Assembly: GCF_015223055.1 (NCBI RefSeq)
Contig: NZ_JADFBX010000005.1
Span: forward strand, 1 to 64,000
Direction: 5' to 3'
DNA from: Pedobacter sp. MC2016-24
GTDB lineage: Bacteria; Bacteroidota; Bacteroidia; Sphingobacteriales; Sphingobacteriaceae
DNA length: 64,000 nucleotides
Position numbers and translations under genes: made by a program. The stretch's first letter is position 1. Each line of letters begins with the position of its first letter. Below, piece by piece: positions 8,230 through 26,459 of this stretch. Below the pieces are notes generated by a model. That model made no database searches. It saw only the letters and a list, made by a program, of their open reading frames with translations, and was not told where the DNA came from.

Positions 8230-9777
8230 TTATTGTTTTATAAATGGTAACTTACTCAATAAAGATCTAAACATTTGTTTTTCTGATTCATTGATTCCAA
8301 AGAAAAACATTAGGAAACCATAAATGAAACTCAAAGCAATCGCTTTTGGTGCAAACATAAAAAGATTATGAGCTGGATAATATTTATTGATTAAAAATCC
8401 GATGATCAGCGTTAGTCCTAAAGGCATTAATAACCCTAAATAACATTCTTTAAAAAATCTAAAAATATTTAGCTTTAGTACCTTCCAGTAAACATAATTC
8501 ATACCAATAACATGACATGACATCGTAGCTATAAATATACCAATCGCACAACCTAAAGCCCCAATGGATGGCGACAAGACAATACCAATGATCACACTCA
8601 CAATAGAAGCTACAATGAAAATACCTGCTCTATATCTGACCTCATTTACAACAAACAAATAGGTGGATGCGATCTCCTGAGTTAAAGTAATAATACCAGG
8701 CAAAACTAATAATAAAACAATTTGATAGGAGGGCTCAAATTCTTTACCCATCCATAACATAATAAACTCTTTTCCAAATGTGACCAATCCAATAATTAAA
8801 AGTCCCATAATTAATAATTGCAGACGTCCAACTTTAATCATTAAATCAGTGATTTCCTTTTGGTTGTTGGATTCCAGGTGCATTTTTGAAACTTTTGGGA
8901 GAAATAAGCCATTCAGTGCATGTGCAAAAGTCCAGGTATAGCCTTCAATAATAATTCCGATTGAAAAAATAGCAATTTGCTCAGTTCCTGAATATCTTCC
9001 AAGAATAGTAGGAACTATATTAATTAACAGTCGCTGTGCAATTCCAATGATCGTAATCCATAAAGAAAATTTGAACAATTCCTTTAAAAGCTTATTATTT
9101 TTGTAGTTAAACTGCACTTTAATCGGAATGTTTTTATGAATATAAGTTAGTTTTATGAGGATAATGATAATGCCAATAGCTGCATTGATGGCCACAAGTG
9201 CATATAATTTATAACCTAAAAGCAGGGCTATAACCATTAAGATAATCACCCCAACTTTACTTATGATATCACTGAATTTCAGGATAACGAATTTCTCATA
9301 GGCGATTAAGATTCCATCCATAGGCATAAAGGGAAATGACAGGAGGCTAAAAAAGCCCGCTATGCAGAAAATCACATAAAATTTTTCTAATTCTGAGGGT
9401 GTTAATTCCGTAAATATTTGACCTAAAAACGCATAAACAACCAGAAGTGCCACAAATATCCCTAAACTGATATATAAATAAAAACGACTGGTTAAGCCAA
9501 GCAATTGGTTGACCTTCTCATCATCGTGTTGAGACCTATATTTTGCAATAAAACGTGCTATGGCCGAACCTAGGCCAAAATCCATCACAAAGTAGCTCAA
9601 AAATGAGGTAACCAAGATGTATAAACCATAATCCGACCTCCCAATTTGCTTAATCATCCAGGGTGTATAGATGAGGCCTGCAACAATATTAAAGATGATT
9701 GCAGCATAAGAAATTATCGCACCACGCTTAATTTGGTGAGATGAATTTACATTTTCGATATTCTCATTTTTCATCAA
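8230..9777 (-). CDS. Wzx-type oligosaccharide flippase
   Basis: 515 residues with about twelve to fourteen hydrophobic segments and few soluble loops. The opening GAIISYAAIIFNIVAGLIYTP and the motif DYGLYILVTSFLSYF are characteristic of the polysaccharide-specific transporter (PST) branch of the MOP superfamily. It should flip undecaprenyl-linked repeat units from cytosolic to periplasmic face. The presence of a Wzy-like gene in the same operon supports Wzx/Wzy-dependent assembly. The specific symbol is withheld because Wzx sequences are too diverse for exact naming. Confidence 0.88.
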   Translation of the reverse strand: MMKNENIENVNSSHQIKRGAIISYAAIIFNIVAGLIYTPWMIKQIGRSDYGLYILVTSFLSYFVMDFGLGSAIARFIAKYRSQHDDEKVNQLLGLTSRFYLYISLGIFVALLVVYAFLGQIFTELTPSELEKFYVIFCIAGFFSLLSFPFMPMDGILIAYEKFVILKFSDIISKVGVIILMVIALLLGYKLYALVAINAAIGIIIILIKLTYIHKNIPIKVQFNYKNNKLLKELFKFSLWITIIGIAQRLLINIVPTILGRYSGTEQIAIFSIGIIIEGYTWTFAHALNGLFLPKVSKMHLESNNQKEITDLMIKVGRLQLLIMGLLIIGLVTFGKEFIMLWMGKEFEPSYQIVLLLVLPGIITLTQEIASTYLFVVNEVRYRAGIFIVASIVSVIIGIVLSPSIGALGCAIGIFIATMSCHVIGMNYVYWKVLKLNIFRFFKECYLGLLMPLGLTLIIGFLINKYYPAHNLFMFAPKAIALSFIYGFLMFFFGINESEKQMFRSLLSKLPFIKQ

Positions 9778-12345: not shown

Positions 12346-13486
12346 CGTTAAAAATCAAAATTATTTCATTTATAAAATTATCATTTAAATCAGAGATTAC
12401 CTGAAAACTACTAACTGATAGATTCAAATTCGTTTCTTTGATCGCTGTGGCAATCTGTTCTGGATTATCCTCCGTATAATATTTTAAAAGATGCCCAATT
12501 TTAGACTTTTCAACACAATGAATCTTACCAGAGACTACACAAAGTCCCATTGAGAGATAAGATAATACTTTACTAGGGAAGGAAGTGTCCAAATATTTCC
12601 CTGACATCTTTTGAGTACTCAATCCGATATGACATGTCTGACAATATTCAATAAATTCATCACCACTTTTTGAGCCATCGAAAACAATCTTACAACCAGC
12701 TCCACGGTCATTATTTATCTCTTCAATACGTTTTAATAATTTTTCGACTTCGCCAAAGCCAATAATGTGCATTCTATATAAATCAGATAAATACATGGCA
12801 CTTTCAATTGCATTGAACGCACCTGCTTTTTCAGAATCAATAATTCCAGCGTAAACAAGGTGTATTTTACCATCATCTGGTGGCGAGCTTTTTCTTTCTA
12901 TCCTTTCATAACTACCGTAAATAATAACATTTGGTTTACCCTGATCCACACGATTCACCAAAAAATCAGTAGCCAAAAGGTAGCCATCAGCGCAGCGTAT
13001 AATTTTGTCTTCTAACCTATCAAAATAGGAATGTAGGGAAGAAACGTCTCCGTAGATCTCCTCTACTTCCAATATTAATTGGAATTTTTTTAGCTTTTTT
13101 GCCAATAAGACTGGAAGTGCTAGCCAAGGGGAGTGATAAACTAAAACTTTTTCATTCTTTTTTATCTTAAGCAGCATGAAAAAGAATAACCACAATAAGC
13201 TATATACCACTTTTAATTTGAGCATCAATTTGTTCATTGTTCGAAAAGTGGGACAAAAGATGACCTTTTTTGCCTTGTGAACTGAAAACTCATTCTTCGA
13301 AAAAATTACTTCTCCAACTTTCGTATCATCTCTCCAGGATGGTGAAATCACCAGTACATTAAAACCAGCATTATTGATCGCATCACAGATATAATTCATC
13401 TTATTGACGGCAGCAGGAGAGGATACTCGATTGGTGTTCATGGAAGGAACATCAAAGAACCCAATATATTTTATATCTTTTGTCAT
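12317..13486 (-). CDS. Glycosyltransferase, GT4-like
   Basis: 389 residues, GT-B layout. The acceptor half begins IKYIGFFDVPSMNTNR and contains a hydrophobic stretch around residues 85-105 (VVYSLLWLFFFMLLKI) that may rest on the membrane. The donor half contains LVYAGIIDSEKAGAF, MHIIGFGEVEKLL and SYLSMGLCVVSG. The canonical Glu-x7-Glu motif is weak, so it is a divergent GT4-type enzyme. Target sugar unknown. It overlaps the Wzy-like gene by four bases. Confidence 0.75.
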   Translation of the reverse strand: MTKDIKYIGFFDVPSMNTNRVSSPAAVNKMNYICDAINNAGFNVLVISPSWRDDTKVGEVIFSKNEFSVHKAKKVIFCPTFRTMNKLMLKLKVVYSLLWLFFFMLLKIKKNEKVLVYHSPWLALPVLLAKKLKKFQLILEVEEIYGDVSSLHSYFDRLEDKIIRCADGYLLATDFLVNRVDQGKPNVIIYGSYERIERKSSPPDDGKIHLVYAGIIDSEKAGAFNAIESAMYLSDLYRMHIIGFGEVEKLLKRIEEINNDRGAGCKIVFDGSKSGDEFIEYCQTCHIGLSTQKMSGKYLDTSFPSKVLSYLSMGLCVVSGKIHCVEKSKIGHLLKYYTEDNPEQIATAIKETNLNLSVSSFQVISDLNDNFINEIILIFNDDQLLGNPR

Positions 13487-14601
13487 AAATATACGTCATT
13501 TAACTGCATTTCTTGCCAGAAAAATTTATACTCTGAGCCAATATTTGATCTTACATACATCCCTACCAATAGCAAAATCAAGAAAGCATAAATTATATTC
13601 TGTATTTGCTTTGAAAAAATAGTTAAAGATTGTATAGATAAGGGAACCAAAACCATAATGAATACAGAGAAGTATTGTACAATTCTTAAAAAAGCATGTA
13701 TCTCAAATACTAAGGATAAAAAAAACACCGCCATAACCATAGCCGCATATTGCATTTTCGCAACAGGTAGTATTTCAACAACTTTTGTATAACGGAATAA
13801 AGCCAGCAAAGAGACAATCAAGAGCATTACTGTAAGTGTAACCGGTTTAAATTCTTCCATGTGCCCATACTCCTCATAAGATTGGGAAAGTCCGATAAAC
13901 AACAAGGAAATCTTACTGCTCAGTAATAGTAATAACGGAAAAAACAAAGTCAATGGCCAAAGAATAATGTCCGGTCTCTTAATCCGTGCAATAAAATAAA
14001 ATGGTAAAAATATCAAACAAGATTGATGTATGGTAGAAGCTACAAGAATCAAGATTACATAACGGATAAGTTTACGTTGTTTAATCCATTCAAATCCAAT
14101 TAAGGTTGCGGCTGTTGCTATTGTTTGCCGATGTCCAGTTATAGAAAAAAAAGAATAAAAAAGTACTGCGTAAATTACGTACGCGAGAATTGCGCTTTTA
14201 AGAGTTGTTGTATTCTTATAGATAAAATTCCCTAAAACCGGAAAAAACATCATAGCAATCAAAAAAAGAAAACCTTGATAATCACTAATAAAGATTTGTA
14301 CTATTTTTTCAAAAACCATGAACCCTGGGTCCTTTCCAACTCCTATAGTATAATGAAGTACAAATTCAAGTATAACTTCATCCCAAGGGGTAGTCTTGAC
14401 CGTCTCAAACATATCAAAATATGCATAAGTGTCTGTTCCTACTGCTACATTTCTTAATCCAGATTGTAAGATTAAAATTGCAGAGATTATGAAAATATAT
14501 TGCTTTCTATTCGAATCACTATCTGGCAAACCTTTTATCCCTGTCGAGTAAACAACGCCAATAGCAATTATTAGAAACATAACAAATAGATTAAAAATCA
14601 T
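13483..14601 (-). CDS. Wzy/EpsG-type polysaccharide polymerase
   Basis: 372 residues with about ten membrane segments. The region LRNVAVGTDTYAYFDMF (from about residue 48) matches the EpsG-family pattern in which an Arg and a GTD/Y cluster sit in the first periplasmic loop, and SITGHRQTIATA recalls the conserved RQ region. EpsG and Wzy proteins polymerise lipid-linked repeat units in the periplasm. No other gene in the locus is a candidate polymerase, which supports the call. The start overlaps the stop of the next gene upstream by 11 bases. Confidence 0.82.
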   Translation of the reverse strand: MIFNLFVMFLIIAIGVVYSTGIKGLPDSDSNRKQYIFIISAILILQSGLRNVAVGTDTYAYFDMFETVKTTPWDEVILEFVLHYTIGVGKDPGFMVFEKIVQIFISDYQGFLFLIAMMFFPVLGNFIYKNTTTLKSAILAYVIYAVLFYSFFSITGHRQTIATAATLIGFEWIKQRKLIRYVILILVASTIHQSCLIFLPFYFIARIKRPDIILWPLTLFFPLLLLLSSKISLLFIGLSQSYEEYGHMEEFKPVTLTVMLLIVSLLALFRYTKVVEILPVAKMQYAAMVMAVFFLSLVFEIHAFLRIVQYFSVFIMVLVPLSIQSLTIFSKQIQNIIYAFLILLLVGMYVRSNIGSEYKFFWQEMQLNDVYL

Positions 14602-20944: not shown

Positions 20945-21991
20945 TCATTTAAAAACCTGAGTTATAAGTTTTGACACTTCGTTCCAGGAAAATTCTTTTT
21001 TCTTTAAAGCCATTTTATGCTTTAAAGACCAAAACAAATCTTTATCATTTAATAACGATAGTAACCCAGTCTTTAAAGATTCCTTATTAGGTTCAACCCA
21101 AATACACTCGTCAGATTTCAATTGTTCTTGCAGTCCTCCAACTTTAGTGCAAACCATTGGCAGTTCCGCATATATCCCCAATGTAATGACACCTGACTGT
21201 GTCGCTTCTAGATAAGGAATAACTAAAATATCGGCCCAACTAAGTAATGCACCGATCTCTTCATCAGTTAGAAACTTATCTTTAATCTTTATGCTTTCAG
21301 AAGTTGAACGATTTACAATAGGATAAAGACTCTTGCCCGCTATTATCAACTGATCAAAATCAGGCAAAATATCACTAGCTGCATCTATCAGTAATTCTAC
21401 ACCTTTATACTTTCCTATTCTACCCACAAAAAGAATGTTCTTACTCAAATGCTGCTCCTTTATAGTTACAAACTCATTTTCATAAATGCCATGAGGAATG
21501 ATATGAAGACGTTTGTTAGCCTTCATTCTATTTATCACTTGATTCTTGACAAAAACAGTTAGGAAAATAACATCTGTAGCCAATTTAATCTTTAAATCAC
21601 TATCCAATTGTAACCATTTATTATTCTCCCCTTCATGTAATATACCATCATGGATGGTAATCACGACCTTCCTGCCAAGAATTCTAAATAAGATCATGAA
21701 AGGAAGTGCCCAGAAATGATTATAGGGCAAATATAATGTATTATATTCCCTGCACATCTTTGGAAGTAACATCATGAACTTAAAAGGCAAATAAAATAGA
21801 GTCCTGAACAAGAAAGATAGTATACCACTGTAAGTAGACATCACTATGGTGTGATCCAAACCATAATTTGCTGTTGCCTGCTTTGAAATTAACACATCAT
21901 ACTCTACACCTTCAAGCTCTTTTATAATTGAAGACGCATAATTTGGTAATCCACCGTTTCGCCCAAGAGAAATTATTAGTACCTTTTTCAA
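20945..21991 (-). CDS. Glycosyltransferase, family 4
   Basis: 348 residues, GT-B. The start VLIISLGRNGGLPNYASSII is a typical acceptor-domain opening; ITIHDGILHEGE and IPHGIYENEF mark the hinge, and the donor half contains FVGRIGKYKGVELLIDA and a glycine-rich loop. The terminal motif is TQSGVITLGIYAELPMVCTKVGG, a Glu-poor version of the Glu-x7-Glu region. Likely adds a repeat-unit sugar. It is the first glycosyltransferase after wzz, with a 59-bp gap upstream. Confidence 0.85.
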   Translation of the reverse strand: MKKVLIISLGRNGGLPNYASSIIKELEGVEYDVLISKQATANYGLDHTIVMSTYSGILSFLFRTLFYLPFKFMMLLPKMCREYNTLYLPYNHFWALPFMILFRILGRKVVITIHDGILHEGENNKWLQLDSDLKIKLATDVIFLTVFVKNQVINRMKANKRLHIIPHGIYENEFVTIKEQHLSKNILFVGRIGKYKGVELLIDAASDILPDFDQLIIAGKSLYPIVNRSTSESIKIKDKFLTDEEIGALLSWADILVIPYLEATQSGVITLGIYAELPMVCTKVGGLQEQLKSDECIWVEPNKESLKTGLLSLLNDKDLFWSLKHKMALKKKEFSWNEVSKLITQVFK

Positions 21992-22050: not shown

Positions 22051-23154
22051 TTATTCCTTAGCCATTATATCCCTAAAATATTTTTTAACTACCAAAACGA
22101 CTATACCAATAAATACTGCTCCTATTGCAGAAAACACCATGAACATTAGCCTTCCCCTACCTTCCAAAGGTAATGGTAAAGTGGGTGAATCCACCACTTG
22201 AATTAAGGGTGTCTCTTTTCTGAGAGAGATTTTTGAAAGTTCTAAATTTTTAACCAGTTCAAGTAATATCCCTTTATTCGTCTCCGCACTGAATTGTGAT
22301 TTTTGTATAGGTGCTAAGCGTTGAACGGTTCTTGTTGGATTCAAGTTAGGCGTAGCATCTGCTACAAATGCCGCTGTATAAATAGCTCCGTCCATCACAG
22401 CTCTTACAGAATCTACTTTCTGCTGCAGAATTTTCACATTATCCATCGATTTTCTGGTTTTAGTCTGGATGTAAAAATCACTTACATTTTTAACGATCTG
22501 ATCATTGAATGATTTAGAGAAAAATTCGTTGCTAGACTTCACATCTGCTTTGATAATACTCAATTTTTTATCGGGCTTTAAAACATTTAGGTAATTCTTA
22601 TTTATATCATTCACAATAATACTTAAAATACTATCCTGTACACGATTTAAAGTAGGTAATCCCCTATCAAGACTACCCATTGGTTTAAAAATCAAGTCTT
22701 TCAACTCACCTTTCTCTGCCCATGTCTTTCTAAGATTATTAATATCGATATATCTATCAACTAGCAATACTTTAGTCCCCTGATAGGAAACTTCGGTCAA
22801 TAAGGTCTTAACAATCATACTTCTGGATCTATATAATGCTAAAATATTATCACCTTGGAACAGGCCACCACCTCCATTAATATCCATTCCAGCCATTGAC
22901 GCTAGCCCCATTATAGAGCCTAAACCTCCCCCCCCCACTTTGTCCTCTTCAAGTACAAAGGTAGTTGTAGCAGTATATTGTATTTTTCTAGAATAAGTAT
23001 AAGCAAAACCGATAACTGCTCCTAAAATTCCAAAAGAAAGTATCAACATCCATTTAGAAAGCAAGTAAGTAGTCCATTCGTTAATCTTAAAGATTAGTTC
23101 TTTCAAAGACATTTCATAGTGATCTTGCTTCTCCTTTGGTTTCTCTAAGTCCAT
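22051..23154 (-). CDS. Wzz-type polysaccharide chain-length determinant
   Basis: 367 residues. One membrane helix lies near residues 30-52 (LSKWMLILSFGILGAVIGFAY) and a second near 332-358, flanking a large periplasmic coiled region. A proline-rich TLPLPLEGRGRLMF precedes the second helix, as in Wzz/PCP proteins. There is no C-terminal Walker/tyrosine-cluster kinase, so this is a kinase-less PCP. It should set chain length and link the periplasmic polymer to the SLBB channel. Codons for a Gly-rich segment contain nine consecutive G residues (C run 22928-22936 on the plus strand), a possible slippage site. Confidence 0.87.
   Translation of the reverse strand: MDLEKPKEKQDHYEMSLKELIFKINEWTTYLLSKWMLILSFGILGAVIGFAYTYSRKIQYTATTTFVLEEDKVGGGGLGSIMGLASMAGMDINGGGGLFQGDNILALYRSRSMIVKTLLTEVSYQGTKVLLVDRYIDINNLRKTWAEKGELKDLIFKPMGSLDRGLPTLNRVQDSILSIIVNDINKNYLNVLKPDKKLSIIKADVKSSNEFFSKSFNDQIVKNVSDFYIQTKTRKSMDNVKILQQKVDSVRAVMDGAIYTAAFVADATPNLNPTRTVQRLAPIQKSQFSAETNKGILLELVKNLELSKISLRKETPLIQVVDSPTLPLPLEGRGRLMFMVFSAIGAVFIGIVVLVVKKYFRDIMAKE
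22928..22936 (-). repeat. Nine-base G tract inside the Wzz gene
   Basis: Nine consecutive C residues on the plus strand read as G9 in the coding strand, spanning codons for Val-Gly-Gly-Gly in the segment DKVGGGGLGS. Gain or loss of one base would shift the reading frame in the first third of the protein. Such tracts are rare in AT-rich DNA. The glycines themselves are common in this family, so protein constraint may explain part of it. Confidence 0.85.
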
Positions 23155-23163
23155 ATCAATCAG

Positions 23164-25656
23164 TTATCTTAACAAACTTACAACAATAGCTGCTAAAGAA
23201 GCAAAAGCAGTCCCTATACCTATCCAACTTTGTGCAGTCATTTTTTCTCTGTCCGCTCTTTTTGGAACTAGAATCTCAGCACCCGGTTTTACTTTCGGAA
23301 AGTTATTAAAGAATAAAAACTTCTTCGCAGCCTCTACAGAGCCATTAGCGTACTTAATGTAAGCACCTCCTCTAAGCGCACTAGCTGTAAATCCACCTGC
23401 ACCATTTACATAATCTTTAAATCCTCTATTGTTAGCATAAACAATGCTATTAGGATTCAAAACCTCTCCTGTGACCTTAACTGTTTGCAATTGTCTCGGT
23501 ACACGGATCACATCACCGTCCTCTACAATTAGATCTATTCTAGACAATGGTTTTTTCAAAATTCGCTCCAAATCAATCCCAACCAAATCTGATTGAATCA
23601 ATTTTTGCTCAACATCAGCCTTTACTGTATCCTTAACTCCCGCTTCCTGAGCTCGTTTCAGCCCCAAAAGCTTCTTATCTTCTTCTTCTTTATTGTTGAT
23701 GGCATTTTTATCTGAAGGATTTACTTTCTCAGCTCCTGGTCTTTTTAACGAAGCACCTTCAATATAAGCGGTTGGCGTTAATCCACCTGCCCGCTTAATC
23801 AAATCAGAAATTCTTTCATTCTTATTGGTAATCGTGTATATACCGGGATACAGCACCTCACCTTCCAATTTCACTTGCTTTTGCACCTGATAACCTTCAG
23901 AATTACGTACAGATATCACATCGAAAGGTTTCAGCACAAAATTATCATCCACAACCTTTAAATTCGCATCCACATTTACAATAAATACCTCTGCTGTCCT
24001 TGCAGATGCAGACATTGCGTCACTATTTTTGATCCTTCTGGATATCTCAATCCGGTTTGGCGTCGCACCTTCCTTAAAACCACCAGCCATTTGAATCACA
24101 TCTTCTAAATTCATGTTATCTGCATAGTCAAATGTACCTGGAGCTCTTACTTCACCTTGAATACTCACCTTATATTCATCACGTAAATCAAACAAAGAAG
24201 AAATACTAACCTTATCTTCTCTTTGTAAAGTAACATCAGGATCCGTACCAGCTAAAACCTTCGCCACATCAAATGAAATTAAAGCGAGTGTATTATCAGC
24301 GTTCAAACGATTGATATAACCCCTATTTAAAAAAGCATCTTCGGTTAAGCCATCTGCCTTACGAATTAATCCCTTCAATGTCAAACCTTTGTCCAACTCA
24401 AACTTTCCAGGACGAAAAACTGCTCCAGCAATCTCTACTCTATTTTCAAAACGATCCAATATTGTTTCCACTAAATACTTATCGCCATTTAAAGGCCCAT
24501 AAGTGGCATATTGGCTTGCAGGAACATCAATAATTCTACGTTCCTTATTGGTGTTTTGCAAAACTTTAATTTGTGCTGTATAGGCCTGATTGGTAAAGCC
24601 CCCTGCAAAGCGAATCACATCATCCAGATTTTCTGTACTCAAAACCTCAAATAAAGCCGGTCGTTTTATTTCTCCAGCGATTTCAACCCTACTTTGATAA
24701 ACAGGGATATTGATGATGTCCTGATCTTGCAAACGAATATTCCCCTTCTGAATCCCGTTTAATAAAAAATCGTATACATCAATTGTTGAAACCACTTTAT
24801 TATTTCTAATCACCTGTATCTTCCGAAACGATCCATTGGTATTTGGTCCTCCAGAAGCATTCAAGGCATTAAAAACAGTAGACAGAGAGGATAGCGTATA
24901 AGTACCTGGTTTAACCACCTCTCCCAAAATAGTAATCTTAATGCTTCTAATGTTTCCTAAGTTTACTGAAACTACCGTTCTACCATTTCTTAGTGATGGG
25001 TAAGTACCTCCCAGTTTAGAAGTTATCTTTGCGGTAGCCTGTTCAATAGATAAGCCCCCTACTGAAACAGGGCCAGCATATTGTAAACGAATAATACCTT
25101 CTGGATTAACCTTTAACTTATAATTCGCTTCATTATCACCACTTAAATCTATTAAGAGCTCGTCATCGGGGCCAATTACATAACTCTTTGGCGTAGCCAT
25201 CCTCAAATTGGGCTCAAATGTAATATTGCTATTGGCAAAAAGTTCTGCACCAAAAATCTTAGGTTTTAAATCCTCCAGGGGATTGACATCTTTTTTTACT
25301 GGACTTTTAGCCTGTATAGCATTCTTTTCGGTAGCACCCTCCACTTTTCTACCAGCGACTTCATCATCTGAAGTCTCCGTTGTATTAGATGAAGTACCAC
25401 CCTGCTTCCGCACCTTTTCCACACGCAAGCGCAATTTGGCAATCTCATCAGCCTTCATGCCCTGCGCCGCAGCCATTTGCTCCAACTGTGCATCATTATA
25501 ACCCACAGATTCAGCCTTTTGGATCATCTGTTTGATTTGTGCATCAGACAATTCATCCACTTTGACGTTCGCATAATTGGTTTGCGACATCGCAGTCTCT
25601 GATATAAGTACCGCACACAATAATAAAATTGCGGCAATTGTTCTCTTAAAATTCAT
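23164..25656 (-). CDS. SLBB-domain polysaccharide export protein (Wza-like)
   Basis: 831 residues from the start at 25656, chosen because it begins a clear signal peptide (about 1-25, MNFKRTIAAILLLCAVLISE); a longer reading to 25761 would add 35 residues with no signal. A charged spacer (about 30-130) precedes the Poly_export domain (PKSYVIGPDDELLIDLSGDN), and then several SLBB repeats each begin with a form of 'V.I.GEV..PG.Y'. A hydrophobic helix (IGIGTAFASLAAIVVSLL) ends the chain. The protein should form or line the outer-membrane export channel for the polymer. It directly precedes wzz. Confidence 0.9.
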   Translation of the reverse strand: MNFKRTIAAILLLCAVLISETAMSQTNYANVKVDELSDAQIKQMIQKAESVGYNDAQLEQMAAAQGMKADEIAKLRLRVEKVRKQGGTSSNTTETSDDEVAGRKVEGATEKNAIQAKSPVKKDVNPLEDLKPKIFGAELFANSNITFEPNLRMATPKSYVIGPDDELLIDLSGDNEANYKLKVNPEGIIRLQYAGPVSVGGLSIEQATAKITSKLGGTYPSLRNGRTVVSVNLGNIRSIKITILGEVVKPGTYTLSSLSTVFNALNASGGPNTNGSFRKIQVIRNNKVVSTIDVYDFLLNGIQKGNIRLQDQDIINIPVYQSRVEIAGEIKRPALFEVLSTENLDDVIRFAGGFTNQAYTAQIKVLQNTNKERRIIDVPASQYATYGPLNGDKYLVETILDRFENRVEIAGAVFRPGKFELDKGLTLKGLIRKADGLTEDAFLNRGYINRLNADNTLALISFDVAKVLAGTDPDVTLQREDKVSISSLFDLRDEYKVSIQGEVRAPGTFDYADNMNLEDVIQMAGGFKEGATPNRIEISRRIKNSDAMSASARTAEVFIVNVDANLKVVDDNFVLKPFDVISVRNSEGYQVQKQVKLEGEVLYPGIYTITNKNERISDLIKRAGGLTPTAYIEGASLKRPGAEKVNPSDKNAINNKEEEDKKLLGLKRAQEAGVKDTVKADVEQKLIQSDLVGIDLERILKKPLSRIDLIVEDGDVIRVPRQLQTVKVTGEVLNPNSIVYANNRGFKDYVNGAGGFTASALRGGAYIKYANGSVEAAKKFLFFNNFPKVKPGAEILVPKRADREKMTAQSWIGIGTAFASLAAIVVSLLR

Positions 25657-25760
25657 ACGTGTGTTCGAGAGGTTAATGCAATAGGGTAAATAGGATATTA
25701 GTTTCACCTGCAAATATATCAAATTTATTAAATTCCGATACATATCTGTAATTCTATCCA

Positions 25761-26459
25761 TTACCTGTTAATTCCCAAATGAAACTGAATGCCCACAGAG
25801 ACCGGATTCAACAAAAATTCCGTCTTCCTGTATTTGTTAAACGTTTTGGTATTACTGGCATCCTGCATCACCGTCTCCTGCCGTTCATAGGAATTGAAGA
25901 AATCCATACTGCTTTCCGCAAAAATACTGATTTGAGGAATCGGGTTAATTTTTATACCAACTACTGGCGCAGCAACAAAACCAGCCTTGCTTGCCTCAAC
26001 AATCGTAGGTGTTATGGCCGTAGAAGATACAGCATCCAACAATGTATTTCTATTGGTTAAGGTTCCATCAAATTTATTATACCTAAATCCAACATCCAAA
26101 CCAAGATAAGGTTGAATCCTGGAGAAGTTAAGGTTTTTCTCGAACCCAATTTTGAAAGCATAATCTGTTAATTTTCCATCTGCTTCCTGGCAAGTCGCAC
26201 AGTTATTAACCAATTTGACATTTTTCTTGATGTAAGATCCATTCAAACGATAACTAAACTGGTTATCATTGAATTTGATCATGAGACCATTGAAAGCAGC
26301 ATTGGTAAATTGCTCGGCATTTTTCTGACTTAAAACTCTGGGCATTTGCACCATACTGAACCCTCGTACTGCAATCGTATAATTGTAATCCCCATTCATT
26401 TGTGAAAAGGCAACATTACTCAGCAGCAAGCAGAAAATAATTAGTAGATTTTTATTCAT
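25761..26459 (-). CDS. Outer-membrane beta-barrel protein, locus-first gene
   Basis: 232 residues with a cleavable signal peptide (1-19, ending VAFSQ). The chain has eight or so amphipathic strands (for example FSYRLNGSYI, PYLGLDVGFRYNKF, NPVSVGIQFHLGI) and resembles small porin-like barrel proteins of Bacteroidota. A CATCQ loop near residue 89 could make a disulfide. It is the first gene of the leftward polysaccharide locus and sits just upstream of the export protein. A function in the export complex is likely only by position. I see no clear TAnnTTTG promoter in the 272 bp ahead of it. Confidence 0.7.
   Translation of the reverse strand: MNKNLLIIFCLLLSNVAFSQMNGDYNYTIAVRGFSMVQMPRVLSQKNAEQFTNAAFNGLMIKFNDNQFSYRLNGSYIKKNVKLVNNCATCQEADGKLTDYAFKIGFEKNLNFSRIQPYLGLDVGFRYNKFDGTLTNRNTLLDAVSSTAITPTIVEASKAGFVAAPVVGIKINPIPQISIFAESSMDFFNSYERQETVMQDASNTKTFNKYRKTEFLLNPVSVGIQFHLGINR

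Follow-up and report, generated by a model that had tools for sequence, protein, structure and literature searches.

A run of nine Gs in a gene for polysaccharide chain-length control raises the question of whether such a tract serves as a genetic switch or is a by-product of the protein sequence around it. The tract lies in the window, the 64,000-nucleotide stretch of Pedobacter sp. MC2016-24 DNA that we analysed, and the original prediction held both that it can slip and that it works as an on/off switch. We consider it likely, if not assured, that the tract is an incidental G homopolymer, a consequence of the glycine codons that encode a flexible loop rich in this residue, and that it was not shaped as a switch. 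The gene and its glycine codons are placed as follows.

22051-23154, minus strand: wzz-like polysaccharide co-polymerase gene, 367 aa, no kinase domain (open reading frame, Pfam and fold).
22928-22936, minus strand: G9 tract (C9 on the plus strand), from the third base of wzz codon 73 to the second base of codon 76 (sequence).
22864-22875, minus strand: second glycine cluster, GGA GGT GGT GGC, with no long G run (sequence and translation).

The tract begins in GTG (codon 73), runs through GGG GGG (codons 74 and 75) and takes two bases of GGA (codon 76); no other run of G or C in the 64-kb window exceeds 7. We calculated the product of the gene for different tract lengths. Nine Gs give the full 367 aa, while G8 gives 77 aa, G10 92 aa, G7 91 aa and G11 78 aa, and G12 restores a long product of 368 aa. 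The gene therefore has what is expected of a contingency locus at this level, a coding homopolymer of at least 8 bases whose slippage truncates the protein. In these respects the original prediction was accurate: it had placed a nine-G homopolymer inside the chain-length gene, had stated that a one-base change removes all downstream domains, and had pointed to nearby glycine codons that avoid long G runs, as those of the second cluster do. When the codons of this gene alone were shuffled synonymously, a G9 was reached in the region in 19 of 1000 shuffles (1.9%).

Judged by Pfam matches and predicted fold together, the gene encodes a polysaccharide co-polymerase, one that lacks a kinase domain; the best PDB matches of its AlphaFold model are Wzc, KpsE and WzzE. 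The window protein itself matches Wzz (PF02706) over residues 31-73 with 22.3 bits, below the cut-off of 25.5, and 42 of 50 aligned homologues match this family at E 0.001; a PDB search by sequence profile returned no match. In the model (mean pLDDT 85), helices 35-55 and 335-366 flank the long helices 210-266 and 273-314. The two terminal helices would span the membrane, so that the predicted structure has the co-polymerase architecture of two membrane helices around a periplasmic domain of long helices. The loop encoded at the tract, residues 72-85, lies between strand 59-68 and helix 101-109 and has a pLDDT below 50, and its glycines therefore probably form a flexible linker. Among 17 loci, the named relatives are 16 Pedobacter and one Arcticibacter.

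The neighboring genes belong to a Wzx/Wzy-type polysaccharide locus. The flippase, the polymerase and the initiating transferase listed below share one long run of minus-strand genes with wzz.

23164-25761, minus strand: Wza-type SLBB polysaccharide export protein, 865 aa, upstream, 9 bases before wzz.
20945-21991, minus strand: glycosyltransferase, 348 aa, downstream of wzz.
13483-14601, minus strand: EpsG-family (Wzy-like) polymerase (PF14897).
8230-9777, minus strand: Wzx-type polysaccharide flippase, Polysacc_synt (PF01943).
In the same long run of minus-strand genes as wzz: initiating transferase (PF00953).

Of the eight other places listed for the genome as Wzz-profile matches, open frames were read at six. 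None of these six has more than 5 Gs in a row, and similar tracts in wzz paralogues were rejected as a candidate pattern on that basis; one of the frames (L122) resembles a pump protein and probably does not encode a Wzz.

We then compared the tract with known systems. The closest precedent is Amuc_1413, a Wzz/Wzc-type gene of Akkermansia muciniphila described in a 2026 paper. According to that paper, passage in the absence of mucin turned a G9 tract into G10 in 87-91% of reads, and this change came with loss of mucin binding (PMC13055324). Among 100 genomes surveyed there, the tract was G9 in 32, G8 in 3 and G10 in 1, with truncated products of 79 aa (G8) and 98 aa (G10). As in the window gene, the G9 falls in the Wzz-domain part (near codons 55-72 in Amuc_1413, where the paper states both numbers), and the likeness between 79/98 aa there and 77/92 aa here is striking, as an analogy drawn from product lengths rather than from an alignment of the two genes. 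Amuc_1413 differs in coming from another phylum and in encoding 735 aa with a Wzc-like kinase domain, against 367 aa and no kinase; moreover, slippage, mixed reads and phenotype were measured for it, whereas the window tract is known from sequence alone (PMC13055324). The tract also resembles the poly-G/C contingency loci of Campylobacter and Neisseria in that at least 8 consecutive Gs lie in the coding part of a gene for surface glycans and stop codons in the shifted frames follow closely (PMC4965091, PMC5084427). Such genomes have many runs whose length variation was measured, with 29 loci of 7 or more in C. jejuni NCTC11168 (PMC4965091, PMC5084427), and in Neisseria homopolymers of 8 or more are mostly variable (PMC5084427). 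The window genome, in contrast, offers 12 runs of at least 8 Gs from a single genome sequence, and several of these fall in genes of ordinary appearance. Within the Bacteroidota, a wzz deletion mutant of Bacteroides fragilis lacks high-molecular-mass polysaccharide (cited in PMC3090145). That gene is likewise a Wzz homologue of a Bacteroidota polysaccharide locus, while the phase variation described there for the large capsule is attributed to an invertible promoter and not to a G run (PMC3090145). None of the papers listed by our literature searches deals with a G tract in wzz of Pedobacter.

If G runs of this length were favored, they might be expected in excess in homologous genes. We collected 173 loci and reduced them to 151 distinct genes by removing duplicates (identical bases 150-600) and the low-scoring loci L047-L051, which an earlier tally of 62 genes still included; from one of the searches that supplied loci, the higher-scoring matches were fetched. 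Taking out named locus ids manually left a genus-only set of 110 genes. Over whole genes, runs of G8 or more occur in 10 of the 151, against 9.2 expected from synonymous shuffling (273 of 600 shuffles), and in the glycine-rich region in 8 of 151, against 8.6 expected. Runs of G9 or more occur in 5 of 151 genes, the window gene being one of them, against 2.03 expected (25 of 600 shuffles), in 5 of 110 genus-only genes against 1.55 expected (13 of 600 shuffles), and in the glycine-rich region of 4 of the 151 against 2.01 expected (136 of 1000 shuffles). This excess is weak, since the threshold was set post hoc by the finding itself and the window gene is among the five; leaving it out, four others against about 1.5 expected give a Poisson estimate of roughly 0.07.

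The position of the tract is not conserved either. At the glycine cluster of the window gene, the longest G run is 9 in this gene only (1 of 151), 8 in one homologue, 7 in one and at most 6 in 148 of 151, and the other long runs of homologues fall in differing columns, several of them in the second glycine cluster. The original prediction had named strains with mixed glycine codons at the same site as evidence against itself, and between species this is nearly the situation, with mixed codons there in most of the 151 homologues. Known contingency tracts may be species-specific, and absence across species weighs less than strain data would. Two further observations were made in this family. One homologue (L103) carries an in-frame G10 at residue 46, in the region of the first membrane helix. 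In addition, the share of GGG among glycine codons of the 151 genes is 0.115 before another glycine codon and 0.165 before other codons; this rarity of GGG ahead of a second glycine codon points to a mild avoidance of G runs.

At the scale of the genome, long G runs are not enriched. In the window genome, 21 overlapping G8 matches make up 12 runs of 8 or longer, 4 of which reach 9 or more, while synonymous shuffling of 309 long open reading frames (403 kb of coding sequence), scaled up to the coding DNA of the whole genome, predicts about 30 and 3.3, respectively. With counts at or below this expectation, enrichment was rejected. The genome is thus short of runs of G8 or longer relative to shuffling, a shortage that the wzz family does not share. 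Among 35 genomes of the genus, overlapping G9 matches number 0 to 10 per genome, and the window genome has 9, six of which come from a single G14 run. This run (G000:C27:31902-31915) lies 32 bases from the end of contig C27, is followed by T-rich sequence and GGGC repeats, and looks like an assembly-end artefact. Two genomes of the same class (G042 and G053) have 191 and 63 overlapping G9 matches, against the 0-10 of the genus. Four of the 12 runs in the window genome (L005, L007, L012 and L014), one of them a G9, lie in long frames that resemble, on reading by eye, SusC/TonB receptors. The genome also encodes the mismatch-repair families MutS1 and MutL, both above cut-offs.

We further searched for broken alleles. 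Of 145 same-genus genomes, 108 match wzz at E 1e-40, and every match listed begins at residue 29 or earlier; the portion ahead of the tract is thus present in all of them. Six candidate homologues with inner stops or short or partial matches were fetched and aligned. Five are one continuous match each (L267 stops at a contig end), and only L264, from a near-complete genome (G109), is frame-broken, at about 1415-1454 (residues 141-144), some 50 residues after its G7 run; as this break lies away from the run, L264 was rejected as an off allele. Two sequence patterns, each requiring at least 8 Gs ahead of an FQGDN motif, were found in 4 and 2 of 399 family genomes, a denominator that counts all family genomes with or without the motif, and each of the six tracts lies within a single in-frame tblastn match spanning both sides. 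The set of 151 genes contains 3 and 2 instances of these patterns, against 4.4 and 1.8 expected. All ten genes with G8 or more are in frame as well. These ten do not exclude switching, because genes entered the set on the strength of a long open frame, and ten in-frame genes would be expected by chance with a probability of about 0.3 if the off rate were that of Akkermansia (4/36). Altogether, no allele broken at a long G run was found among the homologues examined (151 genes and the fetched candidates).

These results bear on how the tract may be explained. If it were a contingency locus, slipped-strand mispairing at G9 would turn wzz off (77 aa at G8, 92 aa at G10) and on again, and every population would at all times include both cells that have length-regulated surface polymer and cells that lack it, phage pressure being one such setting; the early stops may also cut expression of downstream genes of the locus through polarity. 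The calculated truncations, the Amuc_1413 precedent (PMC13055324), the variability of most Neisseria homopolymers of 8 or more (PMC5084427) and the weak family excess of G9 or more are in line with such a locus. The tract is nevertheless not conserved between species, runs of G8 or more show no excess in the family, all ten genes that carry them and all six pattern-found runs are intact, with the chance value given above, and the sole frame-broken homologue breaks well past its G run. We hence regard a contingency locus, together with its standing mixture of cells, as unlikely. The claim that the tract works as an on/off switch finds no support here, with at most 6 Gs in nearly all homologues, G8 runs as frequent as expected and no broken allele; the claim that it can slip is plausible, by the precedent of G9 to G10 in the Akkermansia gene (PMC13055324).

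Two other accounts appear very improbable, to a similar degree. The tract might be a sequencing or assembly miscount hiding a true allele of another length, as homopolymers are error-prone and the G14 at the end of contig C27 in the same assembly looks like an end artefact; nine Gs, though, keep the frame open through 367 aa, and homologues align on both sides of the tract. Alternatively, RNA polymerase or the ribosome could slip on the G9 and yield a fixed share of short product in every cell with the DNA unchanged. Tract length and the quick stops in both shifted frames are all that speaks for such slippage, and the tract is not conserved.

The incidental origin of the tract is supported by the genome counts of G8 and G9 at or under expectation and the family count of G8 as expected, and further by the lack of conservation at the glycine cluster, the scattered columns, the low-confidence loop and the presence of MutS1 and MutL. 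Against it count the weak family excess of G9 or more, the shortage of G runs in the genome but not in the wzz family, and, by analogy, the Akkermansia Wzz/Wzc G9, which acts like a phase-variable tract (PMC13055324). The loop sits just past the first predicted membrane helix and first strand. Under an incidental origin, amino acids would be loosely constrained there, so that GGG GGG GGA could arise and disappear freely between species. The tract is probably slippage-prone, as some slippage is likely at its length. It would slip above the rate of average DNA and yield rare loss-of-function cells, which mismatch repair would keep rare; their polymer would be changed in length or missing, and they might at times be picked out by selection.

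A broader possibility, which we hold to be doubtful, is that slippable tracts of G8-G10 keep originating in the glycine-rich loops of Wzz/Wzc co-polymerases, which would act as their nursery. In Pedobacter and the family around it, each tract would have its own origin at one of several columns, and Akkermansia would have followed the same path independently, with polymer-length control repeatedly exposed to reversible frameshift switching without a conserved switch. If the tract does not slip, it cautions against inferring switches from one homopolymer. If it does, the species would have an easy way of producing cells whose surface polymer is changed or gone, with a bearing on phage escape and biofilm. 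The view across the family outweighs the single case: roughly one Pedobacter wzz gene in twenty (5 of 110, the genus-only set) contains nine or more consecutive Gs, and wzz may be unusually exposed to frameshift loss simply from its protein sequence.
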